Assembly (NCBI RefSeq): GCF_910596095.1
Contig: NC_056552.1
Coordinates: 18,486,611-18,550,610 of the forward strand
Reading direction: 5' to 3'
DNA: 64,000 nt
DNA from: Thunnus maccoyii
Taxonomy: Eukaryota > Chordata > Actinopteri > Scombriformes > Scombridae
Shown: positions 1-9,149 of the stretch, piece by piece
Position numbering within the stretch: the stretch's first letter is position 1
How the letters are laid out: every line of letters starts with the position of its first letter
Made by a program: the position numbers and the translations under genes
Notes under the pieces: model-generated
Seen by the model: the letters and a program-made list of their open reading frames with translations, nothing else
The model's database searches: none
What the model was told of the DNA's origin: nothing

Positions 1-479
1 GCATCAGTTGATGTAAACACACTTGCCCTAGTCATACCTGACTTTGAAGCCGTCACAGAGCCCCTTGTGCTTATAGGCACTAATACCCTTGATGTGCTCT
101 ATGACATCTATTCCAAAACTGGAATGACACATCAGCCTACCCCGCACGGTTACAGAGCAGTCCTTAAAGTACTTGAGGTGAGACACAAGCGGGCAAACGA
201 CATCGAGCCCTGCGGTGTAGTGAGGCTACATGGGAAGAGCTCCCAAATCATTCCAGCTGGTGAAACTGTTGTACTGGAAGGAGTTGCTCCAATGAACGGG
301 TTCCAGAGCGAGAAGTCCGTTCTTATCGAACACCCATCTTCATCCTCCTTGCCAGGTGGTTTGCTTGTTAAAGCTGCCCTGATTGATCTTCCCCAGCGGC
401 GTCCCAATAAGCTACCAGTTGTGATCTGTAATGAGTCCGATCATGATATTGCCATTCCTGCAAAGTGCACAATAGCACA
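1..479 (+). other. gypsy internal region upstream of RT (protease side of pol)
   Basis: An open frame runs from base 1 and contains an LIGTN motif near 73-87, of the kind found at the end of the protease region of vertebrate gypsy-like pol proteins, followed by the linker that precedes RT. The segment ends where the antisense LTR is inserted. The assignment rests on position upstream of RT and on resemblance; the protease active site would lie upstream of the window. Confidence 0.6.
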
Positions 480-1025
480 TGTAACCCTTGTTACGATGTA
501 ATAACAGAGCACAGGTAAGTAATAGTCAATAGTAATAACTGGACCAGTAACAGAAGACACTAAGCTTTTAAGAGCCAATATTTTGAACATCAATAATGAC
601 ACAGACTACAATGGTTTGTATGTTTGTGGCCACTTGTTATTTCAAGCTGAAGGTCAACATGTAATACAACAGTTTTTTTTGGAAAGAACAATGTATGAAA
701 AATAACAAACTAAAATAATAAAGCCGGCAAAATAAAACAAAAGATACCCTTTGTTCCCAAAGTTAGTCCTTATTGCGTTGGGGCCTTTTTTCTGACCAAA
801 TGTCAGTGTGTCACCGTCTATTTTAGTCCTACCACACGGTCCGTGAGAAAGGAGAAACCAAGGAACCCTGCACGCATCTCAGGTTCAATACCAGTGGTTC
901 GGTTCGGCTCGCCACCCAGTTCACACTGGGAATCTCTAGGTCTAGGGATCTGAAGCCTTGCAGGAGTCCAGCAGGAAGTTCTGGCTGCGTCCCCTTTTTC
1001 TTTATGGTATCACCAAAAACCTGAC

Positions 1026-1719
1026 CTAGAGACAGGCCAGATGAGATCCAAATATCTCATTACATTCATACTGTCTGCATAAATCATGTTCATTTTCTAA
1101 TCTCCCATGAATTATTACCAATTAATAATAATATTTTGTATTAATTAGTTCAATCATGTTCTCAAAAAGGTTTAGTTGTACAACAAAAATATATCTTTAG
1201 TTTCAAGTGTTCATTTGTAGTTGTGTAACTATAAATACATTCAAAGTGCTAGTTATAATCATGTTCAATTACACATTAATAACCATCTACAAATACTCAA
1301 AATTATGTGGTTACACAAGTAACTGACAAAAGTACATTTCACAAAAATAAAATAAAATACTGTGGAGTACCCCTTTAATTTGGTCAAAATTGCATCAAAT
1401 GCAGCAAACATTAATAGTAACATGAGGCATTAAGGCTTAACGTGCTTAATTGTCTCTCCTTGCACCGGTAACAGTGAGAGATTGCACTAAATATTAACCT
1501 CTTTAATTACTATAAACATAAAATAAACATAAATTGCACGTAACACCAAATAATCATGCCAGCTAAGTGGCTAGGCTCAAGTTAACACGCTATTAGCATC
1601 ACAAAACACAGTCTCAGATAGAGCACTATTAGCACCTTTTAATGGCTATCAGCGCCAATTAACATAAATATCAGCTGCCTTACAGTCATCTTAACAGGTT
1701 TTATAGTGTTTTCACTCAC
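1026..1719 (-). other. intron-like segment in the solo LTR (absent from the 3' LTR)
   Basis: On the LTR sense (minus) strand the segment begins GTGAGT and ends CTCTAG. The 3' LTR lacks exactly this stretch, joining its flanks at 6952/6953. A perfect donor, a pyrimidine-rich acceptor and exact absence together suggest a spliced intron. I inferred this by comparing the two LTRs by eye. Confidence 0.72.
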
Positions 1720-1805
1720 CGCTGAGTCAAAGTATGAACGAGGTTTACAGCATTTCACCTCGGCAGACCCGCGAAATCATCCGGCCTCTCACGCTGCTTT
1801 ACAAT

Positions 1806-1894
1806 CTTAAATGCAACAGTATGGCGGTCAGCAGCTGTTTAACATCATCTAGAATTAATATTACTTCGTTTAGAAGATCATTTTTAGTTCTTAC
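1806..1894 (-). other. second intron-like segment in the solo LTR
   Basis: On the minus strand it begins GTAAGAAC and ends CATTTAAG. The 3' LTR lacks exactly these 89 nt, with the join at 6865/6866. It lies 5' of the larger segment on the LTR sense strand, separated by an 86-87 nt exon-like block. Confidence 0.7.
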
Positions 1895-2442
1895 CCAACG
1901 GATGGCAAAAGATTTTATTTTCTCTATGTCCCATCAGCACTCGAGGTAGCCAGCATAGGTTGTTTTTTAAAACAGGAAGTTATAACAGGAAGCGGAACTG
2001 CAGCTGATCACCTGGGACTAGTGGGGTTCATTGATTTGTTATTTGGGGATCTTGTCATACTGAGCCCTTCACTGCTGCTTGGAAAATACAATGTTGGCTG
2101 TGTTTCTCCTTTTATGCACATAGTTTCATGATTTTAAACAACTTTCAACAGATGTAGTCATTTATATGAGTTATTTGAATGATATTTACTCCAAATGTTA
2201 TTTCTATACCAACACTTTTTAATAGTTCTTCGTATTATTATTTTCTTAATGTATATAATCACCCTAAATTAATTATTTGTTTGTTTCAAAATAAAATGAA
2301 TTGTTTTCAAGGATTTTAACGACTTTTCAATGAATTATTAACTTCTCAATTAAGATGAATTATTTTAAAGGGATAATTCTAATATTACAGGGTGTCATTT
2401 TAGAGCCTGGGCTACACACAGATCTGTACTTACCAGACCATA

Positions 2443-5400
2443 TTGTTAAAGGAGCACAGTGTGGCCAAGGCACCTGAGCCACTCCGAGGGTCACCAGAGA
2501 CAAAGCTCTCCCAAAAGCCTGCTCTAAGCTTTAACTTTGGCGAGTCCCCAGTCCCACCTGAGTGGAAAGAACGCATCACTCGGCAACTCAACAACATGCC
2601 TGATGTGTTTGCGCAACACGACTCGGACTTTGGCCGAACAGATAAGGTAACGCATCACATAAAGCTCTCAGATGAAACTCCCTTCAAACTGCGCCCTCGA
2701 CCAATCCACCCGCAAGACCTTGAGGCAGTTCGGAAACACATCCAAGAGCTTCTTGATGCAGGAGTCATCAGAGAGTCGGAGTCACCATTCTCGTCACCAA
2801 TTGTGGTGGTCAGGAAAAAAAATGGCCAGGTCCGCTTGTGCATAGATTACAGGCGTCTCAATCTCCAGACCATCAAGGATGCATATTCTCTCCCCAAACT
2901 CGAGGACACGTTCTGTGCTCTCAATGGCTCCCAGTGGTTCTCTGTCCTCGATTTAAAATCAGGGTTCTATCAGATAGAGGTTGAGGAGGCAGACAAACCA
3001 AAAACTGCTTTTGTGTGCCCTCTCGGGTTTTGGGAGTTCAATCGCATGCCTCAGGGAGTGACGAATGCTCCGAGCACATTTCAAAGATTAATGGAAAAGT
3101 GCATGGGAGACATGCATTTAAAGGATGTGTTGGTCTTCCTCGACGACTTGATTGTGTTCTCCAGAACCCTAGAGGAACATGAGGAGAAGTTGATAAAGGT
3201 GCTCTCTCGTCTCAAAGAGTTTGGTCTGAAACTGTCCCCGGAAAAGTGTGTCTTCTTTCAGACGTCAGTCCGTTACCTTGGCCATGTGGTGTCCAGGAAT
3301 GGAGTACAAACCGATCCAGAGAAGATCTCTGCCCTTAAGACTTGGCCAATTCCCCAGAACTTGCAAGAATTAAGATCCTTCCTTGGGTTTGCTGGGTACT
3401 ATAGGAGGTTTGTTAAAGGTTATTCCAGTATCGTGAAGCCCCTTCATGATCTAACTTCGGGTTACCCACCTTCTCAAAAGAAGGCGAAGATGAAACAGAA
3501 ATCAGAACAGTACCACAATCCAAAGGAGCTCTTTGGGGAACGATGGTCCCCTGCTTGCCAGCAAGCATTCGAGACTGTCATCAGCAAACTTACCACCGCA
3601 CCTGTGCTGGGTTTTGCGGATCCCCAGAAGCCCTATGTGCTCCACACTGACGCCAGTACCACCGGGCTTGGTGCTGTCCTGTATCAGGAGCAAGAGGGTC
3701 AGCTCCGAGTTATTGGCTACGCGAGCAGAGGGCTGTCCTGTAGTGAAAGTCGCTACCCAGCGCATAAATTAGAATTCTTAGCGCTAAAGTGGTCAGTCAC
3801 CGAAAAGTTCAGTGATTACCTATATGGTAACCATTTCACCGTTGTTACTGATAACAACCCACTGACTTATATACTGACCTCAGCAAAACTGGATGCGACA
3901 AGCTATAGATGGCTGGCGGCACTGTCCACATTCTCATTCAAACTTCTTTACCGGCCTGGGAAGCAGAACGGTGATGCGGACGGCTTGTCCCGTAGGCCGC
4001 ATGGAAAGTTGGAGAATGACCTCAAATCCCAGAAAGAGAGGGAACGCATTCTCCAGTTCACCCGAGATCACCTCTCTGATCCAGAAAACATTGACGCAGT
4101 TGATCAAGCAGTCGTGCAAGCCATCTGTGAAAGGCAGCTTATCTACAGTGTCAATGATGATGAAAGTAGCGCTGATAATGTTGCCCTAGTTGAATGTCTT
4201 GCCATCTCTGCTAATGCTGTGCCCGACAGCTATGAGCAAGAGGGTCAATTCGGAGGATTGCCACTCATTCCCCATCTATCTGAAGCAGAGCTGATAGATA
4301 AACAACGGGCAGACCAATGTATAAGGCATGTCATTTCCCAAATCGAGTATGGGGACACACCACCCCCCACCTTGCGGAATCAACTCCCTGACCTCCCACT
4401 CCTGCTCCGAGAGCTAAATCGCCTTGAGCTCTTGAATAATGTCTTGTACAGACGTCGTCAAGAGGGTCCCAAAACAACCTACCAACTTGTGCTCCCAGCT
4501 GAGCTCCGTGACACAGTTCTGACCAGCCTGCATGACCATATGGGTCACATGGGAGTGGACCGTACAATGGATCTCGTAAGGTCCCGATTCTACTGGCCGA
4601 GGATGGCTGTGGATGTGGAGAGGAAGGTGAGGACATGTGGCAGATGCGTGCGGAGGAAGGCACCACCTGAGAGAGCGGCGCCCTTGGTCAATATTAACAC
4701 CACTAGGCCCCTTGAACTCCTTTGTATGGACTTTCTCTCTCTTGAACCTGATAAAAGTGGGACCAAAGACATCCTTGTGATCACGGATCACTTTACCAAA
4801 TTTGCGGTTGCCATTCCTACACCTAACCAGAAGGCACGCACAGTGGCAAAGTGTCTGTGGGAGAACTTTATGGTGCACTACGGCATGCCAGAAAAGCTAC
4901 ATAGCGACCAGGGGCCAGATTTCGAATCTCGCATGATAAAAGAGCTCTGTCAAGTGGCTGGCATACAAAAAGTAAGGACAACCCCATACCACCCTAGGGG
5001 CAACCCTGTTGAGCGATTTAATCGCACCTTACTAGACATGCTAGGCACCCTTCAGAACCAAGAGAAGTCTCGTTGGCGTGATTTTGTAAAACCCCTAGTC
5101 CACGCTTATAATTGCACCAGGAATGACGTGACAGGTTTCACACCATACGAATTAATGTTCGGGCGCCAGCCTCGCCTGCCGGTTGATCTGGCATTTGGAT
5201 TACCAGTGTGTGGCAGCCAACACACATCACATTCCGAGTATGTGCAAAACCTTAAGTCACGGCTCGAGGAAAGCTACAAAATAGCCATGGATAACGCTGC
5301 AAAGACAGCACACAAGAACAAAACACGGTTTGACAGGCGCGTGACTGCTTCAGACTTGGAAGCTGGAGACCGAGTACTGATCAGGAATGTCCGCATCCGG

Positions 5401-6357
5401 GGGAAGCATAAGATCTCAGACAAATGGGAGTCGATTGTCCATGTAGTGGTGAGCAGAGCAGGCACCCTTCCTGTCTATACGGTTAAACCCGAAAACAAGG
5501 ATGGTCCTTTAAGGACACTGCATAGGGACTTACTCCTCCCATGTGGATACTTACCTACAGAGGAGAGCATTGAACCTGTTCAGCAACCTGCAAAGCGCAG
5601 ACCAGCAACTCGTGCAAATCCTGCTGTAGATGCCGATTGTTCCTCGGAGGAGGAGGACGATGAGCTCATTCCAGTCTACTGTTTCAACCAACCCCCAAAA
5701 GCTCAGGTCCCTGCAGTGCATGAGAGCCCAGTACTGCCTGATCCACCTATGTCTAACGAACAAGATACACAGCATACTGAACCTCCAGATGTATGTTCTG
5801 TCGAGAGCCCAGTGAATGCTCAGAATGCTGATTACACTCCCGAAATTGACAAACAACCTGATATGTCCGAATGTACACCAGACAGTCCCCTGACACTTGA
5901 CAAACCTACCAGCCGTCAGGGTGACACTGAGTACCTATCTACTGAAAGAGTAATTCTAACCGAACAAATACATGAAACAGACCAACCCGAAAGTGTATGC
6001 CTTGGGGAAAAAGAAAACTTACCTGATAATGTTGATGACATCTGGAATGAACAGCTTCCAGTGCTCTCTGACATGTCAGAGAGTGAAGAGGAGAAAGGAG
6101 AGGACGGGTCGGATGAAATAGAGACAGAAACTAAAGAGGAGACGGAGAGACGAACAGGAACAGATACCTCTGTCAGAAGATCAGAGAGGAATCGTCAACC
6201 GTCAAGGCGACTTGATTATGCTGAACTTGGAAACCCCTTTGTCACAGTGGTTAAATCGTTCTTTCATGGACTGACCACAGCACTAGCAGGTGCTTTGAGT
6301 GAAGCTGAAAACTCCCTACATTCCCCTGTCCTGCCTTCTCAGATAAAACATATTTGA
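2443..6357 (+). CDS. gypsy pol: reverse transcriptase, RNase H, integrase
   Basis: This 1304-residue frame encodes the enzymes that copy and integrate the element. RT spans roughly residues 60-300, with LDLKSGFYQI and the catalytic FLDD box (LVFLDDLIVFS) around residue 230. RNase H follows near residues 385-510, starting at the HTDAST motif. Integrase has the H-H-C-C zinc site (HDHMGHMG ... CGRCVRRK, near residues 693-740), a catalytic core with CMDF, SDQGPDF and NPVERFNR, and a basic C-terminal domain. The last ~270 residues are acidic and low in complexity and end in a short hydrophobic stretch of unknown role. The first residues of the open frame may not be the true domain start, since an LTR insertion lies immediately upstream. 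Treated as a fossil of a mobile element, not a host gene. Confidence 0.93.
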   Translation: MLKEHSVAKAPEPLRGSPETKLSQKPALSFNFGESPVPPEWKERITRQLNNMPDVFAQHDSDFGRTDKVTHHIKLSDETPFKLRPRPIHPQDLEAVRKHIQELLDAGVIRESESPFSSPIVVVRKKNGQVRLCIDYRRLNLQTIKDAYSLPKLEDTFCALNGSQWFSVLDLKSGFYQIEVEEADKPKTAFVCPLGFWEFNRMPQGVTNAPSTFQRLMEKCMGDMHLKDVLVFLDDLIVFSRTLEEHEEKLIKVLSRLKEFGLKLSPEKCVFFQTSVRYLGHVVSRNGVQTDPEKISALKTWPIPQNLQELRSFLGFAGYYRRFVKGYSSIVKPLHDLTSGYPPSQKKAKMKQKSEQYHNPKELFGERWSPACQQAFETVISKLTTAPVLGFADPQKPYVLHTDASTTGLGAVLYQEQEGQLRVIGYASRGLSCSESRYPAHKLEFLALKWSVTEKFSDYLYGNHFTVVTDNNPLTYILTSAKLDATSYRWLAALSTFSFKLLYRPGKQNGDADGLSRRPHGKLENDLKSQKERERILQFTRDHLSDPENIDAVDQAVVQAICERQLIYSVNDDESSADNVALVECLAISANAVPDSYEQEGQFGGLPLIPHLSEAELIDKQRADQCIRHVISQIEYGDTPPPTLRNQLPDLPLLLRELNRLELLNNVLYRRRQEGPKTTYQLVLPAELRDTVLTSLHDHMGHMGVDRTMDLVRSRFYWPRMAVDVERKVRTCGRCVRRKAPPERAAPLVNINTTRPLELLCMDFLSLEPDKSGTKDILVITDHFTKFAVAIPTPNQKARTVAKCLWENFMVHYGMPEKLHSDQGPDFESRMIKELCQVAGIQKVRTTPYHPRGNPVERFNRTLLDMLGTLQNQEKSRWRDFVKPLVHAYNCTRNDVTGFTPYELMFGRQPRLPVDLAFGLPVCGSQHTSHSEYVQNLKSRLEESYKIAMDNAAKTAHKNKTRFDRRVTASDLEAGDRVLIRNVRIRGKHKISDKWESIVHVVVSRAGTLPVYTVKPENKDGPLRTLHRDLLLPCGYLPTEESIEPVQQPAKRRPATRANPAVDADCSSEEEDDELIPVYCFNQPPKAQVPAVHESPVLPDPPMSNEQDTQHTEPPDVCSVESPVNAQNADYTPEIDKQPDMSECTPDSPLTLDKPTSRQGDTEYLSTERVILTEQIHETDQPESVCLGEKENLPDNVDDIWNEQLPVLSDMSESEEEKGEDGSDEIETETKEETERRTGTDTSVRRSERNRQPSRRLDYAELGNPFVTVVKSFFHGLTTALAGALSEAENSLHSPVLPSQIKHI

Positions 6358-6389
6358 TCACTGCCATGTACAGGGACGTACATGAGTTC

Positions 6390-6401
6390 AGGAGGGGAGA
6401 G
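6390..6401 (+). other. polypurine tract of the gypsy element
   Basis: AGGAGGGGAGAG lies directly against the TGTAGCCC start of the 3' LTR. This is the usual primer site for plus-strand DNA synthesis in LTR elements, and it fixes the LTR boundary. Confidence 0.85.
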
Positions 6402-7500
6402 TGTAGCCCAGGCTTTAAAATGACACCCTATAATATTAGAATTATCCCTTTTAAAACAATTCATTTTATTTTGAAACAAACAAATAATTAATTTAGGGTG
6501 ATTATATACATTAAGAAAATAATAATACGAAGAACTATTAAAAAGTGTTGGTATAGAAATAACATTTGGAGTAAATATCATTCAAATAACTCATATAAAT
6601 GACTACATCTGTTGAAAGTTGTTTAAAATCATGAAACTATGTGCATAAAGGGAGAAACACAGCCAACATTGTATTTTCCAAGCAGCAGTGAAGGGCTCAG
6701 TATGACAAGATCCCCACATAACAAATCAATGAACCCCACTAGTCCCAGGTGATCGGCTGCAGTTCCGCTTCCTGTTATAACTTCCTGTTTTAAAAAACAG
6801 CCTATGCTGGCTACCTCGAGTGCTGATGGGACATAGAGAAAATAAAATCTTTTGCCATCCGTTGGATTGTAAAGCAGCGTGAGAGGCCGGATGATTTTCG
6901 CGGGTCTGCCGAGGTGAAATGCTGTAAACCTCGTTCATACTTTGACTCAGCGGTCAGGTTTTTGGTGATACCATAAAGAAAAAGGGGACGCAGCCAGTAC
7001 TTCCTGCTGGACTCCTGCAAGGCTTCAGATCCCTAGACCCAGAGATTCCCAGTGTGAACTGGGTGGCGAGCCGAACCGAACCACTGGTATTGAACCTGAG
7101 ATGCGTGCAGGGTTCCTTGGTTTCTCCTTTCTCACAGACCGTGCGGTAGGACTAAAATAGACAGTGATACACTGACAATTGGTCGGAAAAAGGGCCCCAA
7201 CGCAATAAGGACTAACTTTGGGAACAAAGGGTATCTTTTGTTTTATTTTGCCGGCTTTATTATTTTAGTTTGTTATTTTTCATACATTGTTCTTTCCAAA
7301 AAAAAAGCTGTTGTATTACATGTTGACCTTCAGCTTGAAATAACAAGTGGCCACAAACATACAAACCATTGTAGTCTGTGTCATTATTGATGTTCAAAAT
7401 ATTGGCTCTTAAAAGTTTAGTGTCTTCTGTTACTGGTCCAGTTATTACTATTGACTATTAATTACCTGTGCTCTGTTATTACATCGTAACAAGGGTTACA
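6402..7500 (+). repeat. 3' LTR of the gypsy element (intron-less form)
   Basis: The 1099-bp LTR runs from TGTAGCCC to GGTTACA. It matches the inverted unit at 480-2416 along its length except for the two intron-like segments and a ~55-bp stretch. Its sense-strand exon-like blocks run up to 6865, 6866-6952, and from 6953 on. Several short open frames on either strand are not conserved domains and are not called as genes. Confidence 0.9.
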
Positions 7501-8470
7501 ATTTACCATTAACCTGGTACGTTATTTTCAATCATATACATAAGTGGAACATTGTGACTATTGTATTGTGGAACTTGCCTTTTATTTATCACTGGCATTC
7601 TATCTTTTATTATCGCACCTTTCCAGCCCCTATTTAAGCAATTACAGAACAAACAGATGTACACACATGCAACATCACATTTACACCTGCTGACCTGGAG
7701 GTATTCAGCGCACACAGTCACTATTCAAGGCTGTATGGAGTTGGTTTACACAGCTTGCAATTTCACAGGACGAAGGAATTAACCTTGAATACCTGACTAT
7801 AATCCTCACTGTACGCCATAGTCTGTAAAGAGGGACGTAGCAAGGCGTGACGTCACCCATTGGTTTGTGGTCAGTGCCTTTTCTTTTTGGAGCCAGGACC
7901 ATCCATAATAAGAAGTGTGGGTGTTGCCTTTCACGCTCTCGAAACACGCCCTGCTACCTCGGACCAAAGCTAAAGCTAACTCACCGGGAACACCGAGTAG
8001 TGCACACTTGTGCTAACATTAGCTAACTAACACAGCAGGTATCGTTATCAAGTAACTTACCGAATATTGCAACAGAAGCTCTGTGAGTCCCAGAGCTGGG
8101 GGGCGATCTGTCAATTACAGCTGTCACACGGTAGACATCAAAGGTACTATTCATCTTTATATCTTATTAACTGAGCAATAATTTCCAAAATGACCACAAG
8201 CGCACTTATTAGAGGGGAAAAATTTGGAGATTGAGACTATAATGACTCGATGGAAAAATTCATTGACTTAGTATTTCATGAGAGAAGTCCATGCTTTTTG
8301 AATGGAAAGCTATTGCAGCCAGGTAATTTTTGGAGCCAGCATCTAGCGACCATCAGTGTTACTGCATTTTAAGGGACATCCGCGATGCCTTCAACTTCAA
8401 GTGGTGGTTGTTGCCGCTTGCTGTACACACAAATGCAACTTTGTGTGACAGAACATAAACCATGATGAGG
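7501..8470. other. non-coding stretch, probably old interspersed repeat
   Basis: No gene is visible. From about 7790 the text (a CACCCATTGGTTTGTGG block, TTTTTGGAGCCAGGACC, and a second TTTTTGGAGCCAGC block near 8326) resembles a dispersed repeat common in percomorph genomes, although I cannot name the family or prove its ends here. The first 290 bases are the plain flank of the gypsy insertion. Confidence 0.35.
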
Positions 8471-8560
8471 AAATTCCTTCAGTGGACCTGCAGCAATAAG
8501 ACTGAAGGATGACTGACATGAGTACACACAAAAAACACAATTTGCACGTATTCTGTCTTT

Positions 8561-8563
<3 letters not shown>

Positions 8564-8634
<71 letters not shown>
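8564..8634. repeat. compound microsatellite (TC)n(AC)n
   Basis: About 20 TC units (8564-8606) are followed by 13 AC units (8609-8634). Further AC/GT tracts nearby are at about 8743-8760, 8989-9011, 9123-9170, 9370-9388 and 9830-9860. The short open frames across them are low-complexity shadows. Confidence 0.95.
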
Positions 8635-8636
<2 letters not shown>

Positions 8637-9149
8637 CTCTGATGTGGTTGAGTTGTCTCTGTTCAGCACGTAATGACTGTGCTATGTGGTTTTTATTTTT
8701 CTTACTCCCGTAAAGTTGACTCATGCTCAACTGGTGCTTGTGGGTGTGTGTGTGTGTGTGTCGAAACGCTAACAGAGTTCACTCTTCATGTATTCACAAT
8801 AACTGATGATGTGGTGTGATCAGTGACTGTAGCCAAAACTATTGCAGACATGTTTAAAAATGAGTTTGAGGAGGAGCTGTTCAATTTTTCAACTGACTGG
8901 CCGTTGAAAGCCTGAGCTGCTGTATAAATACACAAATGTGCACATACACACTCACATAGGTGTAGGCTCAAACATACAGATACAGCAACACACACACACA
9001 CACACACACACAGTCTTGTAGCAAATAAGTAACCGATAGAAAGGCAGCATAAAAATAATTCACGCTACTTCATCCTCAATCTTTGTTTAGCTGAACAAAG
9101 TCATTTTACCCGTTTTGTTCGCACACACACACACAAACACTGGCATGAA

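Follow-up and report, generated by a model that had tools for sequence, protein, structure and literature searches.

A gypsy retrotransposon family of Thunnus maccoyii appears to carry two spliceosomal introns within its long terminal repeat (LTR), and one of its elements appears to have lost both when spliced RNA was reverse transcribed; from the comparisons below, we put the probability of this reading at about 0.94. That element lies in the window analysed here, a 64,000-nucleotide stretch of contig NC_056552.1 (assembly GCF_910596095.1, positions 18,486,611 to 18,550,610; C20 hereafter). Its pol region is interrupted by an antisense, intron-bearing LTR of the same family, which we consider a solo LTR because CACA flanks it on both sides. 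In LTR reverse transcription, the RNA 5' end supplies the R-U5 part of both new LTRs. An intron in R-U5 should be hard to keep: a single reverse transcription of spliced RNA removes it permanently from the two LTRs. In this genome, apparent LTR introns are retained by two families, in each of which one full element has lost them at both ends.

Read sense to sense, the solo LTR and the 3' LTR of the host element match end to end, at 97.6-98.8% identity in the three larger blocks, apart from stretches of 694, 89 and 58 bp that the 3' LTR lacks. The initial annotation had placed the first two to the exact base and treated them as the only differences; it missed the third, an AT-rich U3 stretch (about LTR 49-106, window about 2311-2368). 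Its description of the 694- and 89-bp segments as running from GT to AG on the LTR sense strand holds (Table 1). Both segments occupy a fixed site and are exactly missing from some copies, and the 12-base exon flanks of each, once joined, give the letters of the 3' LTR at the two junctions in Table 1. The U3 stretch (58-59 bp) varies among copies of this family (family 1) regardless of introns: the 58-bp gap is found in intron-bearing copies on C11, C18 and C17 and in a solo LTR on C2, and is not found in the intron-bearing copies on C2 and at 27.58 Mb of C18.

We assessed the borders by counting every placement in the LTR of a deletion of the given length, equivalent placements included. Sense GT-AG borders arise in 11 of 1241 placements for 694 bp and in 10 of 1846 for 89 bp, a joint chance of about 5e-5 if independent; antisense GT-AG would add 8 and 13 placements, respectively. 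With the comparable segment of a second family (11 of 881 placements), the joint chance for all three falls to about 6e-7, again if independent, and border ambiguity at each segment is 1-3 bases. Splice sites were ranked with a simple consensus score of our own rather than a trained splice-site model. By this score, the donor of the large intron ties for best among the 116 GTs of the LTR and its acceptor tops all 102 AGs, while the AG 5 nt downstream of that acceptor ties for second best. The donor of the small intron lies outside the 12 best shown.

A search of the source assembly (782 Mb, 54 contigs; all counts of places are lower bounds) recovered 18 family 1 loci, two of which are short uninformative fragments (C17 3293873 and C23 5901517). 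All or part of the large intron is found at 12 of the 16 informative loci; the other four (C20, C16 1021566, C16 14361194 and C23 25683305) are without it. The small intron is present at 12 of 15 judgeable loci and absent at three, a count that leaves out C8 732373, which is deleted at that site. Searched for directly, the large intron gave 17 matches and the small intron 16 copies, each at 12 loci and all within family 1 LTRs; beyond them, the assembly gave no match to either segment at E <= 0.001. A 21-base pattern spanning the large-intron junction is matched exactly by the two C20 LTRs alone, whereas 17 further matches carry 3 mismatches, and the exact acceptor pattern of the large intron has no match in viral_contigs or genome_contigs. 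The copy at C8 730373-733844 (L023) is rearranged: its first 9 LTR bases run straight into LTR position 666, and a second gap lies within the large intron.

The 5' LTR of the C20 element, to which the initial annotation had pointed as lying just outside the window, also lacks both segments and matches query 1-1099 in one piece. Four other full-length elements, on C11, C18, C2 and C17, carry both introns in both LTRs; the differences within each LTR pair come to 0 of 1882, 0 of 1880, 0 of 1939 and 6 of 1847 sites, respectively. Calculated from coordinates, the internal length is 6587 bp in all five elements, once the solo LTR and its 4-bp duplication are subtracted from C20. The first 2.6 kb of internal sequence aligns without gaps among the five; the remainder was compared by length and through an 841-base reverse transcriptase (RT) piece at 99-100% identity. 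As far as compared, the C20 element thus differs from its peers only in the LTR introns and in substitutions, besides the nested insert and the variable U3 stretch.

The presence or absence of a segment could by itself reflect gain as readily as loss, and an intronless ancestral LTR might have gained the segments as insertions of a small transposon or an introner-like element. An LTR tree built from exon sequence only places C20 among the young intron-bearing copies. The branches that set these apart from the older copies have ultrafast bootstrap support of 94, 90 and 100%; that for the exact sister of C20 is low (24). Diverged intron-bearing copies (C6, C7, C17 14.98 Mb and C23 5.88 Mb, with pieces at 83-97% identity) hold the segments at identical sites. 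With the intronless C20 element nested within the young intron-bearing group and the introns present in older copies as well, the change reads as a loss. Insertion of a mobile segment is further contradicted by the lack of any match to either segment outside the LTRs at E <= 0.001, by the lack of any target duplication seen at their ends in the other family 1 LTRs, by one copy that lacks the large segment only and by two whose border falls at the next AG. We consider insertion very improbable and reject the mobile-segment form of it, in agreement with the initial annotation, which had favored splicing and had likewise noted ends free of duplication, along with the shared strand of the two segments.

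How often the large intron was lost can be bounded from the same tree. The AU test rejects both a single clade of all copies without the large intron (p = 8e-8) and a single clade of copies without both introns (p = 5e-84); because the one-clade tree is rejected, there were at least two losses of the large intron. The copy at C16 1021566-1022785 lacks the large intron and keeps the small one. In this copy and in C16 14361194-14361850, where a later deletion removed most of exon 3, the donor is joined to the next AG, 5 nt downstream of CTCTAG (CTCTAG/GTCAG/GTTTTTGG), and GTCAG suits the junctions of both. Such a border, in these two older copies, is what an alternative splice acceptor would give. 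Variable ends, which the initial annotation had regarded as a sign against splicing, do therefore occur, yet in a form that helps the splicing case. The differing acceptor, together with the small intron that one copy keeps, hints at more than two losses. Each intronless copy found is single, and the tree places no other intronless copy close to it; this would suit evolutionary dead ends, although the numbers are small. We also rejected the idea that the introns decay faster than the exons, as lineage-level changes affect 7 of 672 large-intron sites, compared with 25 of 1045 exon sites overall (p = 0.045). Against the two downstream exons (8 of 594), the large intron does not differ (p = 0.80); it shows no decay and no clear extra constraint.

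The finding extends beyond what the initial annotation had noted, both to the older family 1 copies without one or both introns and to a second gypsy family, in which the alignments repeat it. Family 2 is a relative of family 1 with RT identity of 70% in DNA and 75% in protein. Its one full element found (C2 5746414-5754870; duplication AAGA, internal length 6709) has identical 874-bp LTRs, both of which lack exactly a 546-bp segment with the borders GTGAGT...TGCAG. A solo LTR on C15 (duplication ATTA) retains this segment and is otherwise 99.89% identical to the C2 LTR. Donor and acceptor both tie for best by the simple consensus score. The other family 2 places among the matches listed (40 of 49 candidates scored) interrupt at LTR position 365/366. 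Seven copies aligned on both sides (C15, three on C4, C14 and two on C10) have 539-568 bp extra with GTGAGT and TGCAG borders, and two further copies (C4 and C3), read on the acceptor side alone, agree. In a search with the segment itself, the 40 candidates scored, of 44, all fell on C15, C10, C14 and C4; most belong to tandem arrays and so do not represent independent insertions, and they need not each lie within an LTR. Family 2 LTRs, intron included, form such array-like clusters at C4 3.65-3.83 Mb, C10 24.78-24.82 Mb and C14 24.27-24.28 Mb (e.g., L051-L054, L057 and L058), which resemble satellite, with a spacing of about 2.6 kb on C10. Homology between the introns of the two families was not shown, as 51 of 200 shuffles did as well in the intron-to-intron comparison; the corresponding values are 68 of 200 for the acceptor region, 78 of 200 for the upstream part and 3 of 200 for the downstream exon.

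Absence from both LTRs is by itself no proof of splicing, because a slip deletion can produce the same outcome, as family 3 illustrates. In this relative (RT identity 61%), both LTRs of the copy at C11 3588837-3590247 and 3596234-3597643 (L063 and L064) are missing the 181 bp that separate two AAGTGTCT repeats; the deletion probably arose by slippage during reverse transcription and passed to both. Ordinary deletion, or template switching of the reverse transcriptase between short repeats, might likewise have removed the family 1 and 2 segments. The family 3 loss, however, bears an 8-bp repeat and no GT-AG, whereas the three intron-like segments have GT-AG borders at odds that chance rarely provides and 1-3 bases of ambiguity. 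The two long segments also have donors tied for best and acceptors at or tied for the top. Deletion of this kind is even less probable than insertion. No less remote is recombination or gene conversion of C20 with an older intronless LTR: such copies exist, but C20 groups apart from them, they fit another acceptor or have a damaged junction, and both C20 LTRs changed within an insertion that keeps its 4-bp duplication intact, although no search for short conversion tracts was made.

Families 3 and 4 add nothing to the count of LTR introns and are left undecided. Like family 1, both have a donor-like GCG/GTGAGT in the LTR, at position 644 in family 3 (L060) and at 545 in family 4 (L062). Among the copies examined, neither family 3, whose sole observed loss is the 181 bp between repeats, nor the three family 4 copies read (C22, C13 and C10) of many partial ones showed a clear intron-like loss. 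The gaps in these three copies are ragged, none with GT-AG and one, in C13, with GC...AG.

Several observations weigh against intron loss through spliced RNA. The acceptor of the small intron is ordinary, scoring 8 against a best of 12, and its donor in C6 reads AT rather than GT, so that not every copy could now splice it. The large-intron junction of the C23 25683305 copy, which begins at LTR position 421, is slightly off (CG missing, TCAG extra). The older copies that lack the large intron, three in all, are solo LTRs or damaged ones, so that joint absence from the two LTRs of a copy is seen only in the C20 element and the family 2 element on C2. Grouping the three older copies is not rejected (AU p = 0.20), and they may descend from one event. 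The proposed mechanism also predicts that the introns should disappear, and their persistence is left unexplained.

Under this mechanism, the gypsy LTR would hold 89- and 694-nt spliceosomal introns downstream of a promoter placed near LTR 430-470. TATA-like motifs at 433 and 445 point to a transcription start near LTR 470. RNA begun in the 5' LTR would then bear both introns in its leader, and most new copies would stem from unspliced RNA and keep them. Occasionally, a spliced RNA with the primer site, coding region and 3' end would be reverse transcribed, and both daughter LTRs would lose the introns in one step because R and U5 are copied from the RNA 5' end. The C20 element would be a daughter of such a spliced RNA, whose pol was later entered by an intron-bearing sister that was then reduced to the solo LTR. 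This matches the proposal of the initial annotation of a gypsy family with leader introns that are lost from both daughter LTRs, which the alignments support. The initial annotation also raised the possibility that the LTR forms with and without introns differ in regulation.

A candidate poly(A) signal bears on how the introns might be used. Of the 20 LTR rows with sequence at LTR 498, 19 have AATAAA starting there, 25 nt ahead of the small intron (C7 has AATAGA). Five older rows (C16 1.02 Mb, C17 14.98 Mb, C23 5.88 Mb, C6 and C23 25.68 Mb) have a second AATAAA in exon 3, at LTR 1595, which reads AATAGA in the 13 young rows, including the C18 27.58 Mb copy. The family 2 LTR contains no AATAAA. 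By analogy with foamy viruses, suppression of the 5' poly(A) site by the LTR splice donor is possible. A more tentative idea, which we think unlikely though worth stating, is that leader introns in the LTRs of a vertebrate gypsy clade act as an RNA-sorting device, with spliced RNA serving as the Gag-Pol messenger and unspliced RNA being packaged; intronless daughters would be dead ends, and the introns would record the founding RNA pool. Separate pools of translated and packaged RNA, as in BARE, would explain why the introns persist. As a test of RNA sorting, we looked for an excess of upstream ATGs in the introns and found none in family 1 (24 versus 21 expected, p = 0.30) or family 2 (16 versus 17 expected, p = 0.67).

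Foamy virus donors splice to sites beyond the LTR. In foamy viruses (spumaviruses), a splice donor lies in R, inside the LTR and thus in both LTRs as in the present elements, and U1 binding there suppresses polyadenylation in the 5' LTR (PMC3694450). Unlike in foamy viruses, donor and acceptor here are both within the LTR, and the intron would leave wholly from the LTR with the coding region untouched. Reverse transcription of spliced RNA is already known, from HIV-1 (PMC1868081) and from delta-Tas foamy virus genomes that lack the bet splice (PMC3814592). Those cases concern internal sequence, in contrast to the loss from both LTRs at equal internal length described here. Ty1 has also been used in retrotransposition indicator constructs. 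In intron-marked Ty3 constructs, intron loss marks passage via RNA (PMC12786077), but those introns are engineered, whereas the ones here are natural and in the LTR. The repeats of Penelope-like elements are not known to be produced by LTR strand transfer. These elements can hold introns, and their mechanism apparently permits intron retention (PMC3846280). Introns in LTR elements are known as well: spliceosomal introns shape the RNA of Ogre, EVADE, BARE1 and copia elements, and Cer1 has a spliced mRNA (PMC3735527, PMC12786077). The introns of EVADE, BARE1 and copia lie in the internal region rather than in the LTR, and BARE is reported to have one spliced RNA pool for translation and a separate pool for packaging and replication (PMC3735527).

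Among the titles and abstract openings of the open-access papers that our searches listed, a scope outside which most subscription journals fall, we found no description of natural introns wholly inside an LTR. Two candidates proved unrelated, an intron in the leader of a lentiviral vector and the bacterial ltrB gene. Relative to that literature, introns wholly within the LTR and natural intronless daughters appear to be new. If confirmed in RNA, they would make the split between translated and packaged RNA readable copy by copy in genomic DNA and would be a natural counterpart of retrotransposition assays with intron-marked elements. In repeat annotation, the two LTR forms could also be mistaken for separate families or for deletions.

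Table 1. Features of the nested solo LTR and its host gypsy element, in window positions
Feature	Position	Strand	Evidence or remark
Left CACA, 4-bp target duplication of solo LTR	476..479	.	Letters at LTR edge
Intron-bearing solo LTR, 1937 bp, TGTAGC...GTTACA in sense	480..2416	-	C20 18487090-18489026
Large LTR intron, 694 bp, LTR 698-1391, GTGAGT...CTCTAG	1026..1719	-	LTR alignment
Small LTR intron, 89 bp, LTR 523-611, GTAAGA...TTTAAG	1806..1894	-	LTR alignment; CTGAC branch-like motif upstream of AG
Right CACA, 4-bp target duplication of solo LTR	2417..2420	.	Letters at LTR edge
Partial pol: reverse transcriptase, RNase H, integrase, gypsy order	2449..6354	+	Pfam RVT_1, RT_RNaseH_2, RT_RNaseH, Integrase_H2C2, rve
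Polypurine tract adjoining 3' LTR	6390..6401	+	Identical tract ahead of 3' LTRs in C11, C18, C2 and C17 elements
3' LTR of host element, 1099 bp, without either intron	6402..7500	+	LTR alignment
Exon-exon junction from small intron	6865..6866	+	Joined flanks match
Exon-exon junction from large intron	6952..6953	+	Joined flanks match
Right ATTT, 4-bp target duplication of host element	7501..7504	.	Left copy outside window

The host element is an ordinary integration with an intact 4-bp ATTT duplication. Its 5' LTR (C20 18483386-18484483) lies 2.1-3.2 kb ahead of the first base of the window, and the two LTRs (1098/1099 bp, TGTAGC...GTTACA) are one substitution and one indel apart over about 1098 bp. 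The domain order, TG...CA LTR ends, short duplication, primer site and polypurine tract are those of Ty3/gypsy elements. No known structured RNA reached the gathering score in window positions 1-9000. The primer site follows the 5' LTR after a gap of 4 bases and corresponds to the tRNA-Arg(ACG) 3' end; its 15-base pattern falls in a tRNA-Arg(ACG) gene at five of six scanned loci. It is unchanged in four of six internal pieces and altered in those of C17 and C18 27.58 Mb. Elsewhere in the assembly, a 250-kb stretch of C22 (16.85-17.10 Mb; e.g., L065) contains at least 8 repeats related to the family 4 LTR, all on one strand, and these repeats lack part of the LTR around 650-940.

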